From a virus: DNA of 20,948 nucleotides. The stretch lies in IMG/VR virus record IMGVR_UViG_3300020469_000315, positions 1 through 20,948 of that record. The stretch is one strand, 5' to 3'. Positions 7,190 through 20,876 of the stretch are shown one piece after another (the first letter of the stretch is position 1; the number at the start of each line of letters is the position of its first letter). The notes under the pieces are model-generated. The model made no database searches. It worked only from the letters and a program-made list of their open reading frames with translations, and was not told where the DNA came from. Made by a program: the position numbers and the translations under genes.

Positions 7190-7675
7190 TCATGTATCTT
7201 CAGTAAACGGAGTGTCATCAGTATCACCTATAGTATCATCATCTCCTGCTTCTTCAACTACTACACTTCTTACTGTATCTGTAACTAGTCCACTTGCACC
7301 AGTGAAATTCCAAGAAACTTTTGCTCCATTAAATTCGTTCTCATTAGCAGTACCACCTGCTGAAGTTACTAATGTCATTACACGCCCTGAGATTTTACTT
7401 ACATTGTAAGTTTCGTTATCAGCTGCTTTTACGGTAATCATACATTCACCTTCAGCTAATGCACCAATCAATTTTCCTGTGACAAGTGTACATAACTTGG
7501 TAGTGTTTGCGCTTGCGCCTATAGGTGAGCATACAAATCTCTTAGAACCTTTTTGTTTTACAATATATCCTATTTTTGCAGATCCATCATTGAAATCTAC
7601 TTTTAATTCGTTTTCTGTTGAGCTAGGTGTTCCATCAGCTGCAAGAAAATTTCGTTTATTAAGAGGTCTTCCCAT
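7190..7675 (-). CDS. Virion-type protein with GRPLNKR N-terminus
   Basis: A 161-residue protein with a strong ribosome site (AGGAG, six As, ATG). The N-terminus MGRPLNKRNF is a motif I associate with small structural proteins of marine T4-like phages. The body is beta-patterned, with an acidic C-terminal tail (EEAGDDDTIGDTDDTPFTEDT). It is the first gene after the iscU insert and is preceded by a late-type promoter and an approximately 90-nt leader, so it is probably expressed late and abundantly. Its role is inferred only from context. Confidence 0.72.
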   Translation of the reverse strand: MGRPLNKRNFLAADGTPSSTENELKVDFNDGSAKIGYIVKQKGSKRFVCSPIGASANTTKLCTLVTGKLIGALAEGECMITVKAADNETYNVSKISGRVMTLVTSAGGTANENEFNGAKVSWNFTGASGLVTDTVRSVVVEEAGDDDTIGDTDDTPFTEDT

Positions 7676-7707
7676 TTTTTTCTCCTATTAGAAGTCCGAT
7701 GTGAGTT

Positions 7708-7764
7708 CTAGTCACTACGCTGTGGGAACAGCATAAATCCGTCAAAGGACAAATTATCCGACAT
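7708..7764 (-). other. 18-codon mini-ORF in the leader of the 161-residue gene
   Basis: An ATG sits about 4 bases after the late box and opens 18 codons ending in TAG (MSDNLSFDGFMLFPQRSD). There is no ribosome site, so if translated it would be from a nearly leaderless transcript. It may be chance. Confidence 0.2.
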
Positions 7765-13476: not shown

Positions 13477-13484
13477 TATTTATG
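13477..13484 (-). promoter_or_regulatory. Late-type promoter before the gp67-like gene
   Basis: Minus-strand CATAAATA (7 of 8 to the T4 late box) straddles the portal stop codon. The expected start site, about 6 bases downstream of the box, falls on the ATG of the 82-residue gene at 13471, so a transcript from here would be leaderless. Confidence 0.45.
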
Positions 13485-15219
13485 TTTCTGCAGACGGATC
13501 AGCTGCTGTTGGCTGCGGTTCTGGGTCAGTAATCGAAGTTGGGCTATCACCAGTACCTCCATCTTCCGCCGCATCAGGTTCTATAATATCTTCAGCTCCA
13601 CCTATATCTGCACTTATGCCGGCGCCTGTAATTCCTGCACCACGCATTTCTCCAGATTGATTATTACCAGGTGGATTTAAAGTTTCATCATTTTCTTCTT
13701 TCCACAATCTTTCATTTTCTGCTATGTCTTCTTCATTTAGTCCAAGGAATCTTTTCAATGCAAATCTGTTAGAAATAAATGGAATAGCTTGGATCTGTCC
13801 AAAAGTGCCAATACGTTGATTGTCTAATTCTGATTGTCTATATGCTGCAAAATTTTGTGGAGGTGTGAACACAATATCAAACATACTCGTGTCAACATTT
13901 ACACCTTTTTCTAAAATATATCTTTTAAATTCTTGATCAAAATCTTCTACCAACAGATTTTGTAAACGTTCGCAGTAAGTATTAAATCTAAGTTCTTGTA
14001 TGAAAGCTGTACCTACTCTACCATCATTGTACTGTGCATTACTGTCATCTGCTCCTGTGGGCAAGTAACTAGAAGGTATACGTAACCCTCTTACAAGTTT
14101 GTTGGTAAAATACCTTAGATCATCTATTTCGCCAAGATTAGTACCTCCTGGCAAAGTTTCTACTTTACTGCCTCTACCTTCTGCTGTCTGCGGAAAGAAG
14201 TAGTCCTCATTGATTGACAGTGGATTATAACTACTGTCTATAACATTTGTACCTCCTCCTGTCTTCGATGGGATCCGTCTTTGGTGGATTTCCGTTTTAA
14301 CACGCTCAACAAATTGCATTGCTAAATGACTGGGCATATTACCCACATCAACATAAAAGACTCTTCTTTCAGGCGCACGTTGTACACGATATATAATTAT
14401 TGCATCTTCTAATAATTCTTTTTGTTTGTAAACTTTGAAAATACTTTCTAACAAACTATTTCCAAAAGGAAAATTGTTATCTAATCCTTCACTTAAACTA
14501 ATGTGCAATATATTTTCTGCACTTACAGATGTTTCTTCTAATTGTGTTTGAAATCTATTGCCTGATACATTAGCAACTGTGCCTGTTACACCGCGAGCAC
14601 CACCTGTCATATAACCACCAGCTGAGCCTGTGGTGTTACCATTTGTTTGTAACGGAGTCGTTGCTACTAAATTTTTAAAATTTAAATTTAGTTCTTGTAT
14701 AACATATTGTTCAGGATCCTTCCCTTCACTCTCATTAACAATTATCCTCGTGACCTTATCAGGGTCAATATGGAAAAGTTTTTTTGTTTCTGGATCTCTA
14801 ACAAAAAATGCATCTCCGTATTTAAAAGTGTTTCTAAATATACGAAACATCCTATTTTCAAAATTATTTAATTTATACCATTGTTTTAGATATTGTCCTA
14901 GAATTGTTACTTCACTATTGGTTGCATCTTTATAAAACTTAAATTCAAAATGAGTATCATTTTTTTTATTCTTTTGTGTGCAAAATTCAGCAAGGATATC
15001 TAAAGCTGCATTAACTTCAGAATCAGTATCCATTGTGTTATATTGACCATATCTGTCAATCCGATTAGGTGATCCTGTGTAAACATCTGGTAGGTAAGAA
15101 TTATAATTAGATTTGGCAGGTCCAGGTTTATTTCCAGCATTTATTCCACTGATCGGACTATATCCACCGTCTGAAATATTATCAGCTGTAACTGTCGTAA
15201 AAAATTTTTTCCAACTCAT
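13480..15219 (-). CDS. gp20: Portal vertex protein (gp20 family)
   Basis: A 579-residue portal. Hallmarks of T4-type gp20 are present: RYGQYNTMDTDSEVNAALDI followed by AEFCT near the N-terminus, NTFKYGDAFFVRDP, an ERRVFYVDVGNMP followed by YVERVKTEIHQRR-type segment in the stem/wing region, LPGGTNLGEIDDLRYF, LRIPSSYLP, FIQELRFNTYCERLQNLLVEDFD, and an acidic Pro/Gly-rich C-terminus. The dodecamer would form the DNA entry vertex and nucleate the core. The start overlaps the tape-measure stop as ATGA, with AGGA upstream. T4 places the sheath (18) and tube (19) genes before gp20; here a tape-measure-type gene takes that place. Confidence 0.95.
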   Translation of the reverse strand: MSWKKFFTTVTADNISDGGYSPISGINAGNKPGPAKSNYNSYLPDVYTGSPNRIDRYGQYNTMDTDSEVNAALDILAEFCTQKNKKNDTHFEFKFYKDATNSEVTILGQYLKQWYKLNNFENRMFRIFRNTFKYGDAFFVRDPETKKLFHIDPDKVTRIIVNESEGKDPEQYVIQELNLNFKNLVATTPLQTNGNTTGSAGGYMTGGARGVTGTVANVSGNRFQTQLEETSVSAENILHISLSEGLDNNFPFGNSLLESIFKVYKQKELLEDAIIIYRVQRAPERRVFYVDVGNMPSHLAMQFVERVKTEIHQRRIPSKTGGGTNVIDSSYNPLSINEDYFFPQTAEGRGSKVETLPGGTNLGEIDDLRYFTNKLVRGLRIPSSYLPTGADDSNAQYNDGRVGTAFIQELRFNTYCERLQNLLVEDFDQEFKRYILEKGVNVDTSMFDIVFTPPQNFAAYRQSELDNQRIGTFGQIQAIPFISNRFALKRFLGLNEEDIAENERLWKEENDETLNPPGNNQSGEMRGAGITGAGISADIGGAEDIIEPDAAEDGGTGDSPTSITDPEPQPTAADPSAET

Positions 15220-17870
15220 ATGGTTTGTCCTGAGCTAACTTTATCTCGTCTGTAATGAGAAGCATCTTGTGATGCAATAGTTTTACTAGTATTTATTAGT
15301 TGATCTAACTTCTCAATCAGCTGTGGATCAAGCTTTGCTACTGTTGTTTGTGCAGCCGGTTGTAGGTTAATTGGTGTATTATTATTTTGTTCAACCTGTG
15401 CTAATCGTAACTCTTGTATGTTTTCATTTAATTTTTCTATTGTTTCACGCAATCCGCCATCATCAAAATTCATACTGACTTGGAAAGGAGGTAATTTAGA
15501 AATAGAATCTATAGCTTGTTGTACAGGTTTTGCATCAACAGTTAATTCAGTTTGTGCCTGCATAGGCCTAGTTTCTGTAGCATTAATTGATCTTCCTTCT
15601 TTTACCACATCATCTGTACTTTGATCTAATCTAGAACCAAAAAGTTCGTTAGTCGGAGTATTGAAAAACTTAATCACATCATCCCACCAATTTTCTATAG
15701 CTAATCCAACATCTTCTATATCTGTTTTAATATTTTCTATAGCATTAGAAAATTCAGTAACAATGCCTTCTGGACCTATAAATAATTCTGATATCTTATT
15801 TGTTTGTTCTTCTATCTTACTTGTAATATCTGCTAACGCTGAATCATATAAATCTGTCATTTCTTTAAATATATCTGCAGTCATATTCTTCATTTTTTCA
15901 TAGTTTGCTAATGCAGGTTGTAGGAAATTTAAATCAAATTGAGTGTATAACTCTGTCATTGTTAAAGTTAGTTTGTCTTTTATCTCGTTGAACCCACTGA
16001 TCATGTTATCTATCATTCCAGGTTCTTTCAGCCTTTGTTCCGTGCTTTGTATTATAAATGATTTAAATTTTTCTGTAAGTTTATCGTTATCATCTAGTAT
16101 ATTATTCAATATATTGCGTTGTTCTTGTGTGGTATCTGTTTGAGGATCTTGCTCTGCTTGTAAAGCTGCTATAATATCTTTTACACTGTATTGTAAATTA
16201 TCACTGATTGCAAACATGTTGTCTACAAGTTTGTTATCTCCTTCTATTGACGGATCTAGTCTTGCTTCGATCAATTTCAACGCTTCCGTCGTCCTTGTCA
16301 TGTCGTTTTGATTTAAAAAATCTTTTAGCAATGCTTTTACTTTTTCTCCACCATCAACAAAATCGTCTCCTGCTTTCTCTACCATATCTGCAAATGTAAA
16401 TAAACCGTCATTCACTACATTCTGTGATTGTAAGAGTTCAATAAAATTTTGTCTAATTATTCCAGCCGCATCTGCAAAACTTTGTTCTAATTCATTAGTT
16501 GCAGCTAACATACCAGCACCTGGATTAGCTTCTTGTGTCAATTGAACTTGCTTCTGTGTAGCTTCTTCTAATTTTTTAATTAATTCTAAATAATCTTTTG
16601 TTATATCACCACTAGATTTAATATTGCTTGATAAACCTGTGAGTATACCATTGACTTCTTCCAGCACTGTTGCTTGTCCTTGTGCTACATCACTAATTTG
16701 GCTAAAGGTAGCAATAGTAAGTCCTTGTCTACTGTTTGCAAATTCTAATGTTTTCGCAGTGGCTTTTTCAGCAAGTGATTCTACTTCTTCTGCAGATGCT
16801 CCACTTTTTACAGCATTGGCAATTTGCATCGCTAATTCACCAGCTTCACCGTTTACTGCCATAAAATTTTGTGTAGCTTCAGTAAGTGGTGCGCCTGTTT
16901 GAATTAAATCACGAACTAAATCATTTAAGACACTAGGAGCACCTTTCAATCCTTCTTGTGCTGCATTAAAACTTTCTTGTGCTCCTGTTATACCATCTTT
17001 TTCTAATAATCTTAACGCAGCAATAGTTGCACCTTCACGATTACGTGCAATCATCTCATCTTGTATCTGTGAAACTTGTTTGCCTGTAAGTCTTGCTATC
17101 ACACTGTAATTTTTTGCCAAACTTCTGATTTGATCTAGTTGCGCATCCTGTACTTCTTGTTCAGTTGCACCAGCTCTTCGCATAGCATTTGCCTGACGAA
17201 TATTTAATTGCGTGTTTTTTGCTAAAAATTCATTTGATTCTGTTAAAGTCATACCAAGATTCATTAGTTGATCAACAACTTTACCTTGTCGCATCCTATT
17301 ACTCAATTCAGCAAAACGTTTTGTGCCCTCATTAACACTGCCTCCTAACATTACAAAATTTTCTGCATTATCAATAGAAATTTGTGCGAAATCTCTTAAT
17401 CCTAAACCTGCTCTAGCACTATTTGTCTGTAATTCAAATAAATTTCCATTTAATCCACCACCAACTTTGCTTAGATTTCTAAAAACATTAACATTATCTT
17501 CAATAAATGCTGTAGCTACATTCACAGAACCACCGAATAATTCTGCTACACCTTGTAATTTTGTACCAATTCCAGGTATAGAACTAACTAATGAACCTAC
17601 AATGCCTGACGTATCATTAATATTGGTTCCAAATTCTGACATAGTCATACTGTTACGGTTAACCTGTTGTAGCATGGTGCTGAAGACCTTTGCACCTCCT
17701 GACAGGGCCGATAAACTACGGCTTAGATTTGTAGGTGTGTTTTTATTAGATCCACCACCTGGATCATTTGAACTGCCTGGTAATTTTAAATCTTTAAATC
17801 CAGTCTCTATACTAGAAGATATTGCACCACTCAGTGCTTGTTTTAAGTCATTTAATTGATCTTCATCCAT
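15216..17870 (-). CDS. Tail tape-measure-type protein
   Basis: An 884-residue, predominantly helical protein. It has an N-terminal linker rich in Gly/Ser/Asn (35-50), then SGIVGSLVSSIPGIGTKLQGVAELFGGSVNVATAF, long amphipathic helices rich in Ala, Gln and Asn (about 170-450: RMRQGKVVDQLMNLGMTL, NAMRRAGATEQEVQDAQLDQ), a Phe/Asp-rich middle, and a coiled-coil C-terminal third ending in a basic tail. Size, composition and its place beside the gp26/gp51-like locus fit a tape measure that sets tail length (role of T4 gp29, 590 residues). The ribosome site is AAGGA 13 bases before the ATG; an exact T4 late promoter lies 54 bases upstream. The alternative is another large baseplate or internal protein. 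Confidence 0.7.
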   Translation of the reverse strand: MDEDQLNDLKQALSGAISSSIETGFKDLKLPGSSNDPGGGSNKNTPTNLSRSLSALSGGAKVFSTMLQQVNRNSMTMSEFGTNINDTSGIVGSLVSSIPGIGTKLQGVAELFGGSVNVATAFIEDNVNVFRNLSKVGGGLNGNLFELQTNSARAGLGLRDFAQISIDNAENFVMLGGSVNEGTKRFAELSNRMRQGKVVDQLMNLGMTLTESNEFLAKNTQLNIRQANAMRRAGATEQEVQDAQLDQIRSLAKNYSVIARLTGKQVSQIQDEMIARNREGATIAALRLLEKDGITGAQESFNAAQEGLKGAPSVLNDLVRDLIQTGAPLTEATQNFMAVNGEAGELAMQIANAVKSGASAEEVESLAEKATAKTLEFANSRQGLTIATFSQISDVAQGQATVLEEVNGILTGLSSNIKSSGDITKDYLELIKKLEEATQKQVQLTQEANPGAGMLAATNELEQSFADAAGIIRQNFIELLQSQNVVNDGLFTFADMVEKAGDDFVDGGEKVKALLKDFLNQNDMTRTTEALKLIEARLDPSIEGDNKLVDNMFAISDNLQYSVKDIIAALQAEQDPQTDTTQEQRNILNNILDDNDKLTEKFKSFIIQSTEQRLKEPGMIDNMISGFNEIKDKLTLTMTELYTQFDLNFLQPALANYEKMKNMTADIFKEMTDLYDSALADITSKIEEQTNKISELFIGPEGIVTEFSNAIENIKTDIEDVGLAIENWWDDVIKFFNTPTNELFGSRLDQSTDDVVKEGRSINATETRPMQAQTELTVDAKPVQQAIDSISKLPPFQVSMNFDDGGLRETIEKLNENIQELRLAQVEQNNNTPINLQPAAQTTVAKLDPQLIEKLDQLINTSKTIASQDASHYRRDKVSSGQTI

Positions 17871-17917
17871 GTAATAAATCCTTACTCAGTTGTAATATCA
17901 CACCTAATTTTAATGGC

Positions 17918-17925
17918 TATATATA
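17918..17925 (+). promoter_or_regulatory. Late-type promoter for the gp26/gp51-like gene
   Basis: Plus-strand TATATATA (7 of 8 to TATAAATA). The expected start is about 17931, immediately before the AAGGAG ribosome site at 17931-17936 and the ATG at 17943. It overlaps the minus-strand late box by two bases. Confidence 0.45.
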
Positions 17926-17931
17926 TTTATA
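17924..17931 (-). promoter_or_regulatory. Exact T4-type late promoter for the tape-measure/head operon
   Basis: The minus strand reads TATAAATA exactly, the consensus bound by the gp55/gp33-type late RNA polymerase. The expected start is near 17918, giving a 48-base leader with AAGGA before the ATG at 17870. It overlaps the plus-strand promoter candidate. Confidence 0.7.
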
Positions 17932-17942
17932 AGGAGTAGGTA

Positions 17943-18815
17943 ATGAGTAATTTTTTATCGCAATATAAACGTCAACCCAAAATCTATATTGATTTACCAA
18001 GCAAAGGCATTTTTTACGATGAAAATATTATTCAAGATAAACAATTTACTGAAATTCCTGTGTTTGGAATGAACACCATGGATGAAATCCTTATAAAAAC
18101 ACCAGATGCATTGTTTTCTGGTGAGTCAACAGCCCAAATCATTAGAAGTTGTATACCTATTATTAAAAATCCTTGGGATTTAGTAGGATTTGATATTGAT
18201 TTTGTGCTTATTGCCATAAGGATTGCTACCTATGGTGATAGTATGCCTGTTCAAAGCACTTGTCCCCACTGCGACAATACTACAGAAAGTGATCTTATAC
18301 TCAACCATCTCCTTGCAGAATACTCAAATAGATCTACATTTTACAGTATTGATTTTCAAGAGCTTAGGTTAGATCTACGTCCATTAAACTATAAAATGCA
18401 GACTGAATTTGCAAAAAAGCAATACATGTTAGAAAGGCAGATAGTTCAAATAGATAAAACCACACAAACAGATGATGAAAAGAATGTTTCAAAACAAAAA
18501 TTAATGAAACAAATGACAGAATTAAATGCAGAAATGATAATTACACATATTTTTAACATTTCTAATCGAGAAAACGAAAGAGAATTTGATTTTGCAGTCA
18601 TTAAAGACTTTGTTATCAATAATGATGCAAGTATTTTCAACGATGTACAAGAAAAGATAAGACAAATGAATAAAGATTGGTCTTTGCCTACATTTGAAGT
18701 ATCTTGTGCAAGCGAATCGTGTAAAAAACAATATGCATCATCTATCAATGTGGATTATGCAAGTTTTTTCGGCGACACATCCTTACGCTCTCGGACTCTG
18801 AGATCGAATCGTTAG
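17943..18815 (+). CDS. gp26: Baseplate/hub protein, gp26 family (zero-frame product)
   Basis: A 290-residue protein with a strong ribosome site (AAGGAGTAGGTAATG). Family signature: IYIDLPSKGIFY, FGMNTMDEILIKTPDALFSG, IRSCIPIIKNPWDL, FDIDFVLIAIRIATYGDSM. A CPHC pair (107-110) and Cys255-x4-Cys260 could form one zinc site. T4 gp26 (208 residues) is linked to the central baseplate hub. The 3' end contains T TTT TTC in phase (18764-18770); reading on in frame adds only a basic 14-residue tail to the stop at 18813-18815, while the -1 frame stays open to 19003. It is the only plus-strand gene in the window and is divergent from the tape-measure gene. A nonstructural, chaperone-like role is possible for the pair (inference). 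Confidence 0.88.
   Translation: MSNFLSQYKRQPKIYIDLPSKGIFYDENIIQDKQFTEIPVFGMNTMDEILIKTPDALFSGESTAQIIRSCIPIIKNPWDLVGFDIDFVLIAIRIATYGDSMPVQSTCPHCDNTTESDLILNHLLAEYSNRSTFYSIDFQELRLDLRPLNYKMQTEFAKKQYMLERQIVQIDKTTQTDDEKNVSKQKLMKQMTELNAEMIITHIFNISNRENEREFDFAVIKDFVINNDASIFNDVQEKIRQMNKDWSLPTFEVSCASESCKKQYASSINVDYASFFGDTSLRSRTLRSNR
18764..18770 (+). promoter_or_regulatory. Candidate -1 ribosomal frameshift site (T TTT TTC)
   Basis: The heptamer fits X XXY YYZ in the phase of the gp26-like frame (AGT TTT TTC). Slipping by -1 leads into CGG CGA CAC and an open frame of 77 more codons. No strong downstream pseudoknot is obvious by eye; a short TCTC/GAGA stem occurs about 20 bases on. Confidence 0.65.
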
Positions 18816-19003
18816 CAAAAGATTATGAAAACGAAACTAAAGAAATGAAATATCAAAGTTATAAGTTAGCTTGGTATATGAGAGGTTCTTTTAGCTATAA
18901 TGATGTAATGTTTCGGATCTCAGCTGAAGATAAAGAAATACTTGGTAAAATTATTAATGAAAATATAGAAAATACTTCAAAAGCCCATATGCCCCTGATT
19001 TAA
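18770..19003 (+). CDS. gp51-like WYMRG domain in the -1 frame of gp26
   Basis: An open frame runs from the upstream stop at 18722 to TAA at 19001-19003 and overlaps the gp26-like 3' end by about 46 codons beyond the slip point and stop. After the slip it reads FFRRHILTLSDSEIESLAKD, then YENETKEMKYQSYKLAWYMRG and DKEILGKIINENIENTSKAHMPLI: a charged helical domain with a WYMRG motif that I associate with the small gene following gp26 in marine T4-like phages, annotated gp51 (baseplate hub assembly catalyst). There is no ATG, GTG or TTG before 18845 in this frame, and that ATG would remove the leading helix and lacks a good ribosome site. The best reading is a 353-residue gp26-gp51 fusion made by -1 frameshifting. 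The alternatives are internal initiation at 18845 (52 residues) or a missing base in the T run. Confidence 0.65.
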   Translation, partial: RRHILTLSDSEIESLAKDYENETKEMKYQSYKLAWYMRGSFSYNDVMFRISAEDKEILGKIINENIENTSKAHMPLI

Positions 19004-19818
19004 TCTGTTTGATATTTCAAACCTTCCTGTATAACTATGTCACTCAATAAAAATCTTTCTAAATGCATTTGTAAATTACGTTGATCATTAACTAAATTAA
19101 GTGATTCTGTAGTTGGTAATTTATATTTTATTCCTTTAGTACATGGTGCGCTCTTTGCAAAAAAATAGTGAGTAACGAATTTTTTTGTAAGGAAATCACT
19201 GAAGGATTGGAATGCTTCACTATTATCTCTTAACAATTTACCTATATTTTCAATCATCCATGTACCAGTGATAGCTTGGACACCTGGAATCATATTTGCT
19301 ACGGTTAATAATCCTGATATTCCAGGTCGACCTATAGCTAATGCTAATAAAGGTGGTAATGATCCAGCTAGTTTTCCACCACCTGCAGCACCAATGACTA
19401 TGGTACTAAGTCCTAATGTAAAAGTTTTACGGAATTCTTCTAATTTTTTAATCATTATAGTTTGATGATTAAAACTTTCAGGATCAAATTTTTCAGCAGT
19501 TTGTGAGTCAGTTGAATTTAATTTTCTAATCCTTAACGAACAGTTGTTTTTTTCTAACGCATAATTATATTGTGCTAATATAGCACTAAGCTCTTTCCTG
19601 TACTTTTCACCAAAAAGAGCAACTATTGCAAATATATCAAATAAACTGGTTTGTGTATCCATCATAGCAAACACACCAGCTACTGTTCCACCTTGCTTTG
19701 CTTTATTACCTAGAACTCTACCAGTTTTAGATCCAATTAATTTTTTACCTAGTTGTTTTACAAATGGTCCTATAGCAAAAATATTCTCATTCGTAGTTGT
19801 TATTTCATTTATTTTCAT
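19000..19818 (-). CDS. Unknown protein with hydrophobic Gly-rich segments
   Basis: A 272-residue protein. The N-terminus MKINEITTTNENIFAIG resembles the short amphipathic starts seen on T4-type head-targeted proteins, but no clear LxE cleavage site follows. There are two hydrophobic stretches: about 48-70 (VFAMMDTQTSLFDIFAIVALF), and about 133-190 (TLGLSTIVIGAAGGG, LLALAIGRPGISGLL, MIPGVQAITGTWMI), which is Gly/Pro-rich and could insert in a membrane. The rest is basic and polar. Function is not recognised. Its stop overlaps, tail to tail, the stop of the gp51-like frame. No ribosome site precedes the ATG; a late-type box lies 7 bases upstream. Confidence 0.7.
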   Translation of the reverse strand: MKINEITTTNENIFAIGPFVKQLGKKLIGSKTGRVLGNKAKQGGTVAGVFAMMDTQTSLFDIFAIVALFGEKYRKELSAILAQYNYALEKNNCSLRIRKLNSTDSQTAEKFDPESFNHQTIMIKKLEEFRKTFTLGLSTIVIGAAGGGKLAGSLPPLLALAIGRPGISGLLTVANMIPGVQAITGTWMIENIGKLLRDNSEAFQSFSDFLTKKFVTHYFFAKSAPCTKGIKYKLPTTESLNLVNDQRNLQMHLERFLLSDIVIQEGLKYQTD

Positions 19819-19825
19819 ATTAATG

Positions 19826-19833
19826 TATTTATT
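19826..19833 (-). promoter_or_regulatory. Late-type promoter abutting the 272-residue gene
   Basis: Minus-strand AATAAATA (7 of 8 to TATAAATA) directly follows a strong inverted repeat. The expected start falls within about two bases of the ATG at 19818. Confidence 0.4.
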
Positions 19834-19855
19834 GAATGAGCGCTGCGCTCATTCA
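19833..19855. repeat. 10-bp inverted repeat upstream of the 272-residue gene
   Basis: TGAATGAGCG/CGCTCATTCA with a 3-base centre forms a perfect palindromic hairpin. An imperfect direct copy of one arm (CGCTCTGCTCA against CGCTGCGCTCA) lies at 19862-19872. It could be a terminator for transcripts from the right, an RNA processing site or an operator. No long T run follows on either strand. Confidence 0.75.
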
Positions 19856-19912
19856 TGTTTTCGCTCTGCTCAAACAATTTCTTTTCTTAAGTTTCATGTA
19901 GATTATGTAGTC

Positions 19913-20166
19913 AGACGGAACCTTTTTACAGGTTCCGTCTTCTCGAAGCTTCATGTGAGTTCTAGCAGCCGAGACTGGAAGTAGGTATTTGTGTAACTCT
20001 ATGGGCTCTGACCTTTCCCAACCTACGTCGACATCATGTAGTACAATTATACTACACTATCCCTAGCTTCGTTCCTGTGCTTAGGGTTTTTAAGAGTAAT
20101 CACACGGGTGAACACACCAGGTCCGGCGATAATATACCGCCTCAAGGTGAATCGAGCTACCTCGAT
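19913..20166 (-). ncRNA. Candidate structured non-coding RNA (about 260 nt of consecutive hairpins)
   Basis: No gene is visible between 19819 and 20188. The interval contains, in order: an 11-bp perfect hairpin (19913-19940, 6-base loop); TCTCG/CGAGA (19941-19974) with an inner GCT/AGC; GTAGGT/ACCTAC (19981-20026) enclosing TGGG/CCCA; TGTAGTA/TACTACA (20037-20056, 6-base loop); CCCTAGC/GCTTAGGG with one bulge (20061-20086); GGTG/CACC (20107-20118); GGCG/CGCC (20125-20141); ATCGAG/CTCGAT (20151-20166, 4-base loop). The segment is clearly less AT-rich than its surroundings. The strand is uncertain; minus is chosen because it would follow the nuclease gene and end at the 11-bp hairpin. It is not a recognisable tRNA, tmRNA, group I intron core or hammerhead. 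Confidence 0.45.
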
Positions 20167-20188
20167 CAAACAATGTTCTTATATAGCC

Positions 20189-20704
20189 TTAATTGCCTAA
20201 GCAACGATTTTCAAATTTAGTTTTGTTGAGGGTAAAAAAATCATCATATGAAGTGAATCTCCATATATTTTTATTTTTATCTTGATAGTCTACGTGCCTG
20301 TATGTATCGAAATTTTGTGGTAATAGATATGCTATATATCTGCCTATACGATTGAATTTCATTAAAAGTGTACTACAATCTCCAGGGTCAGCAGCCTCAA
20401 GAGTTTGTTCTAACCAAGCCTCTAAGATGGGAATTAATGTGTTTGAAAATAATTGATGAAATGGAAAACTTGAATAGGATTTGCATTCAATATTCAAGTA
20501 TTTCCACTCATCGGGGGGTATTATATCACCTTTGTGAGCACGAATTTGGCCTTCAGTAAGGTGATTTTTACGGAAAGAGTTCTTTCCACCAGTGAATGCT
20601 CCACTGTCCGGCACTCTAGTAAACGATGTATTGTATAAACCACTGAGAAATTGTGCTACCTCTCGCTCAAATGCTTTACCTTTTTGTTTGCTTTTTGTCG
20701 GCAT
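20189..20704 (-). CDS. PD-(D/E)XK superfamily nuclease (Holliday-junction-resolvase-like)
   Basis: The start is set at 20704 (MPTKSKQKGKAFEREVA), giving 171 residues; an upstream in-frame ATG at 20755 would overlap the previous gene by 80 bases. Key residues: Glu in KGKAFEREVAQFL (motif I helix), RVPDSGAFTGG, the Asp of HKGDIIPP, and the IECK pair in LNIECKSYSS, together giving the E...D...ExK metal-binding set of Hjc/RecB-like nucleases. The C-terminal half (FNRIGRYIAYLL, IWRFTSYDDFFTL) looks like added fold or target-recognition elements. It may resolve branched DNA in place of T4 gp49, or process DNA otherwise. A GGAGG lies 16 bases upstream, rather distant. A structured non-coding region follows. 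Confidence 0.75.
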   Translation of the reverse strand: MPTKSKQKGKAFEREVAQFLSGLYNTSFTRVPDSGAFTGGKNSFRKNHLTEGQIRAHKGDIIPPDEWKYLNIECKSYSSFPFHQLFSNTLIPILEAWLEQTLEAADPGDCSTLLMKFNRIGRYIAYLLPQNFDTYRHVDYQDKNKNIWRFTSYDDFFTLNKTKFENRCLGN

Positions 20705-20876
20705 ATGTATCTTGAACTTCCCTCCAACGTAATTTAGCCAATTTCTGTATCTCACGTAACCATTTCCGAGTAGAATAATATGTTCTTACAGAATACGCCT
20801 TATTAAATTTGTCACAAGCTTTAAAATACTCTAAATAAGCTATCGTTAACTTATCATGTAAATCATTTTCGATCAT
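20676..20876 (-). CDS. Small helical basic protein, unknown
   Basis: A 66-residue protein rich in Lys, Tyr and Arg, predicted helical (AYLEYFKACDKFNKAY, KWLREIQKLAKLRWREV). AGAGG precedes the ATG, and the start overlaps the upstream stop as ATGA, so it is translationally coupled. Its 3' end overlaps the nuclease start by 29 bases. Short proteins of this composition are common between replication and recombination genes in marine T4-like phages, but I cannot assign a function. Confidence 0.65.
   Translation of the reverse strand: MIENDLHDKLTIAYLEYFKACDKFNKAYSVRTYYSTRKWLREIQKLAKLRWREVQDTYADKKQTKR

Follow-up and report, generated by a model that had tools for sequence, protein, structure and literature searches.

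The window analyzed here, a viral DNA stretch of 20,948 nucleotides corresponding to positions 1 to 20,948 of IMG/VR record IMGVR_UViG_3300020469_000315, very probably (estimated at roughly 0.9) contains the tail assembly chaperone locus of a marine T4-like myovirus, from which a short form (TAC-N) and, by frameshifting, a long form (TAC-NC) are expressed. The assignment as a tail assembly chaperone is a well-supported prediction from sequence comparison. In the proposed mechanism, for which we infer the occurrence of slippage, its efficiency and the chaperone role, most ribosomes would end at the stop codon of the gp26-like ORF itself and release TAC-N of 290 aa, and a minority would slip one base back on U UUU UUC and continue in the -1 frame, resulting in TAC-NC of 353 aa. 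The C-terminal 77 residues of TAC-NC would be equivalent to the terminal part of T4 gp51. In analogy to gpG/gpGT of lambda, the tape-measure protein would be coated by both forms while the tail tube is assembled, and neither form would be part of the virion. Programmed -1 slippage between gp26- and gp51-like domains, similar to lambda G/GT, had been put forward in the initial annotation of this DNA and, with the second domain taken as the C-terminal part of gp51, is strongly supported by the comparative evidence presented below.

The short form is encoded on the plus strand at 17943..18815 and belongs to the gp26-like/T4_baseplate family (PF12322, phrog_150). The 290-aa ORF matched PF12322 with E=8.2e-13 in a Pfam search, and a PHROG search identified phrog_150 'baseplate hub' (E=2.6e-13) and also phrog_1854 (PmgB-like, E=4e-5). 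Structure modelling was performed with alignment rows from the window and the IMG/VR loci only. The structure matches of the short form were gp26-type models; when the short-form model was compared with the PDB in a fold search, no informative match and no solved chaperone structure were found. Homology of the short form reaches its limit at residue 276, which is the slip site, and the remaining tail of 14 residues is not conserved. Indeed, tblastn alignments of the short form with cultured phages stop at residues 276-278 in nearly all records listed, and in the 60 distinct IMG/VR loci the zero frame continues past the slip site for 1-14 codons only, which are not conserved.

Four cysteines of the short form, C107, C110, C255 and C260 (CPxC and CxxxxC; 18261-18722 in the window), are invariant in the aligned marine and jumbo phage short forms and are apparently missing from cyanophage gp26. 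They suggest a possible zinc-binding site of the zinc ribbon type.

The slippery heptamer T TTT TTC is located on the plus strand at 18764..18770 in codons 275-276 (SFF). The codons AGT TTT TTC set it in the -1 slippery phase (X XXY YYZ), and the zero-frame stop ends 45 nt further on; phase and distance to the gp26-like stop were thereby confirmed as initially annotated. In the AT-rich window the sequence TTTTTTC is not rare, with 11 occurrences compared to 11.6 expected. Three phased X XXY YYZ heptamers are present in the 290-codon ORF, so that chance alone would place approximately 0.2 in its last 20 codons. By itself, the window sequence is weak evidence for a frameshift. The slip site is significant because it is conserved among relatives, not from the single sequence, and it is this conservation that makes the case decisive.

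Folding of the RNA downstream of the slip site resulted in z=+0.67 for the window and a family mean z of ∼-0.9 for positions +5..+65, and no strong stem-loop or pseudoknot that could act as a stimulator was seen 3' of the slip site in the window or the marine family. Stimulatory RNA structures downstream of the slip site are common in programmed -1 ribosomal frameshifting, but they are not obligatory. The locus offers a well-conserved natural TTTTTTC for studies of slippage at a site that lacks an obvious stimulatory structure.

Relatives were collected from IMG/VR. In a first scan 20 loci were obtained, 18 of which reach the site, and all 18 have TTTTTTC with a -1 frame of 78 codons. A wider scan was performed with an alignment of the marine subset, as a wide alignment proved too divergent to serve as scan query. 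Here, TTTTTTC was identified at the homologous codon in 60/60 distinct relatives (counting distinct loci that extend to this residue), and in each of them the -1 frame stays open for another 76-77 codons. Relatives with the slip site share as little as ∼33% protein identity with the window. Among 14 cultured jumbo phages (PA5oct, Atu_ph07, Phosso, RaK2, 121Q, SCTP-2, Vibrio 2.275.O, XacN1, CBB, GAP32, XaC1, BF, Munch and Hallingskeid), 13 carry TTTTTTC and XacN1 carries TTTTTTT, and a -1 frame of 70-80 codons is present in all of them. In the cyanophages S-PM2 and P-SSM2, TTTTTTC shortly precedes the gp26 stop and gp51 occupies the -1 frame; eight Ts are found at the slip site of HTVC008M. A near-invariant TTTTTTC over marine, jumbo phage and cyanophage lineages was thus tabulated in the present analysis. 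The expectation that the two-Phe slip site is conserved across the family was borne out by the IMG/VR relatives, the jumbo phages, S-PM2 and P-SSM2, and both the heptamer and the overlapping -1 frame are conserved in the relatives covered here, with longer T runs in XacN1 and HTVC008M. Different residues (S, T, N, H, R, D, Y, A) are found ahead of the two Phe, yet in every sequence they are encoded by a codon with T as its last base; the product of the codon-usage probabilities for this is 3e-7, a value that overstates the surprise since the sequences were taken as independent.

One added T would join both frames in the window, as would be the case if a sequencing or assembly error had hidden a true sequence of seven Ts and a single uninterrupted ORF, an alternative that had been named at the outset. 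However, six Ts followed by C, with the same relation to the -1 frame, are present in all 60 distinct metagenomic relatives, in 13/14 cultured jumbo phages and in S-PM2 and P-SSM2. Because of these conservation data the seven-T error is refuted, and its probability is considered negligible. Slippage could also occur during transcription, in which case RNA polymerase would slip on the T run and produce a mixed mRNA pool, instead of the ribosome slipping during translation. The T6 run at the slip site, and the seven and eight Ts of XacN1 and HTVC008M, would be in line with this, but slippage of RNA polymerase would not need exactly six Ts and a C in X XXY YYZ phase, and bacterial polymerases usually need longer runs to slip. 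Transcriptional slippage is therefore regarded as unlikely, and ribosomal slippage on T TTT TTC is the preferred reading.

The -1 frame ORF (TAC-C; 18767..19003, plus strand) encodes the C-terminal domain of the predicted 353-aa fusion. It reads FRRHILTL...WYMRG...MPLI up to the stop at 19003 and comprises 78 codons when counted from the slipped Phe. Marine relatives were compared pairwise in the region beyond the zero-frame stop, and the median pN/pS of 0.36 for the -1 frame, as opposed to 1.03 for the zero frame and 1.45 for the +1 frame, shows that the -1 frame evolves under purifying selection at the protein level. The FR residues immediately after the slip are conserved as well. When the -1 domain alone was used in Pfam and PHROG searches, no family above the cut-off was found, and the C-terminal domain was modelled with modest confidence (pLDDT 71).

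A separate gene, in which the -1 ORF has a start codon of its own or depends on termination-reinitiation, would agree with the annotations of S-PM2 and P-SSM2, where the gp51 start is placed just past the gp26 stop, and with those of several jumbo phages, where a separate CDS is annotated at the -1 frame. In the window, however, the earliest ATG/GTG/TTG of the -1 frame is found at 18845, one third into the domain, which substantiates the earlier statement that this frame has no credible start. Among the 61 marine-family sequences no conserved independent start could be identified: the first ATG is mostly at residue 38, within the conserved WYMRG (36/61), and any ATG/GTG/TTG by residue 5 is present in only 15/61. 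Moreover, the invariant in-phase heptamer and the conserved FR after the slip would be unexplained by a separate gene. S-PM2 and P-SSM2, in whose records gp26 and gp51 are separate genes, carry TTTTTTC. Independent initiation of the -1 ORF is very unlikely. The small ORF that is named 'hypothetical' or 'gp51' and follows 'baseplate hub gp26' in many jumbo phages and cyanophages is probably the end of the frameshifted chaperone, so that these annotations could be corrected. In the records of the jumbo phages, the -1 frame either lacks an annotation or is listed as a hypothetical gene, separate or truncated.

The chaperone gene is separated by a 72 bp gap from a gene on the minus strand (15216..17870) for a tape-measure-type virion protein of 884 aa, assigned by profile match and synteny, which is followed by a gp20-type portal protein (13480..15219, minus strand; phrog_213, E=2e-112). 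On the other side, a convergent ORF of 272 aa (19000..19818, minus strand) shares its last 4 bases with the 3' end of the -1 ORF and gave no family match in Pfam or PHROG. The 884-aa protein matched virion proteins of PA5oct and RaK2 in a profile comparison with a probability of 99.1%; the PA5oct homolog was detected by MS, and the record of the RaK2 homolog notes similarity to tape measures. No profile match was obtained with T4 gp29 or with the tail genes of S-PM2, P-SSM2 and HTVC008M, no tape-measure family was found in Pfam or PHROG, and tblastn in cultured phages gave no match. Where the flank is long enough, nearly all relatives have a divergent ORF of mostly ∼540-1140 aa at ∼50-90 bp upstream of the chaperone gene, and this variable length fits a tape measure. 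We infer that the 884-aa protein is the tape measure. The divergent orientation is contrary to the chaperone reading, as it is unlike the usual order of a chaperone followed by a tape measure. Of the tape-measure neighbor described in the initial annotation, the adjoining tape-measure-type gene was recovered; it is, however, transcribed divergently, and its identity would follow from profile match and synteny. In S-PM2 and HTVC008M the gp26/gp51 pair is found close upstream of a long gene, which in HTVC008M is annotated as tape measure.

The divergent pair of chaperone and tape-measure-type genes (15216-17942 in the window) is conserved in the marine and most of the jumbo phage relatives, the usual order being on the same strand. 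Additional features were observed in the window. A PDDEXK_15/RusA-like nuclease of the Holliday junction resolvase type is encoded at 20189-20755 on the minus strand, and endonuclease VII or RusA-like genes occur nearby in several relatives. Rfam RF02980 (freshwater-2 RNA, 67.9 bits) was identified at 7673-7753 on the minus strand, where it overlaps the start of a 161-aa ORF (7190-7675); it is a putative cis-regulatory RNA within the phage structural region.

The intergenic region 19819-20188 contains a strikingly conserved candidate for a structured RNA, likely on the minus strand. Its DNA identity is ∼70-84% in 74 loci, compared to ∼35-50% for the neighboring chaperone proteins, and folding resulted in z=-3.9 for the minus strand and -1.9 for the plus strand. 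A hairpin around AGGAACGA shows compensatory changes in its stem (CCCTA/TAGGG, CCTCT/AGAGG, CCGT/ACGG, CTGTAC/GTGCAG and CTTAAA/TTTAAG). As the core is nearly invariant, little covariation is seen in its RNAalifold consensus. An exact core of 31 bases was identified in at least 120 stretches of viral contigs and, in stretches with enough flank, generally has the chaperone locus on one side and a homolog of the small ORF at 20676-20876 on the other. The region had no match in Rfam, nor in cultured phages by blastn. The region looks like an undescribed structured RNA of this clade, and it may merit a study of its own.

The frameshifted locus was compared with T4, in which gp26 and gp51 have domains homologous to those of the short form and the -1 frame of the window. 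With hhalign, residues 5-203 of the gp51 profile aligned with the whole gp26 profile (probability 99.4%, E=2e-21), and the profile of the frameshift fusion aligned end-to-end with T4-type gp51, including the C-terminus (probability 94.4%, E=9e-8); the match of the -1 domain alone to gp51 was weaker (probability 44%). As judged from these alignments, T4 gp51 consists of a gp26 paralog as N-terminal domain, joined to the C-terminal domain that is found here in the -1 frame. The description of the -1 domain as gp51-like is therefore retained for the C-terminal part of gp51, the rest of gp51 being already accounted for by the gp26-like N-terminal domain. Because gp51 aligns both with gp26 and with the frameshift fusion, T4 appears to have separate genes for the two forms, gp26 being the short and gp51 the long one, whereas the window and many relatives appear to encode both in one gene by slippage. 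Genes 26 and 51 of T4 are divergently transcribed, in contrast to the single frameshifted locus of the window, and hence could not be joined by a frameshift.

There are about even odds, in our estimation, that T TTT TTC is ancestral and nearly invariant in the T4-like superfamily (marine phages, jumbo phages and cyanophages), that the T4 gp26/gp51 pair is a derived state, reached as the gene was duplicated and fused and the slip site was lost, and that, the marine and jumbo phage chaperone being also divergent from the tape-measure-type gene, two promoters would partly determine how much chaperone is made relative to tape measure.

Slippage of this kind is employed by many long-tailed phages. 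In lambda, gpG and gpGT are the two products of a gene near the tape measure, and the ribosome slips into the -1 frame shortly before the short form ends. The window shares this two-product logic, but its slip site is TTTTTTC, its tape-measure-type gene is divergent, and no sequence relation to gpG/gpGT was seen. For T4, genes 26 and 51 are reportedly named in the abstract of the 2022 study by Vladimirov, Gautam and Davidson. As relayed in PMC10885494 and PMC12846349, that study (Vladimirov et al., 2022, Virology 566:9-15) described the tail assembly chaperones of T4-like phages, with poly-T -1 slip sites and frameshifting in several T4-like groups and, as an alternative, a separate fused long-form gene as in T4. 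A gp26-family short form, a gp51-type long form and a poly-T slip site are also seen in the marine contig. Going by these two accounts, the unification of gp26/gp51 and the frameshifting in T4-like phages were already published in 2022; the claim that joining the hub assembly factors with the frameshift chaperones would be new has to be withdrawn, and the marine contig is one more member. The chaperone of the Pakpunavirus phage Adele is likewise made by -1 programmed frameshifting; a conserved GTTTTT motif is located where TAC-N ends, and the frame for TAC-C lacks an annotation (PMC12846349). Adele belongs to another phage family and its chaperone is encoded upstream of the tape-measure gene, whereas that of the window is divergent from the tape-measure-type gene. 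PmgB of P1 is an essential protein whose gene immediately precedes that of the tape measure, and a function as tape measure chaperone has been proposed for it (PMC9024508). The PmgB family (phrog_1854) is related to the short form of the window, and by analogy with P1 PmgB the chaperone of the window may be required for tail assembly and may be absent from the virion.
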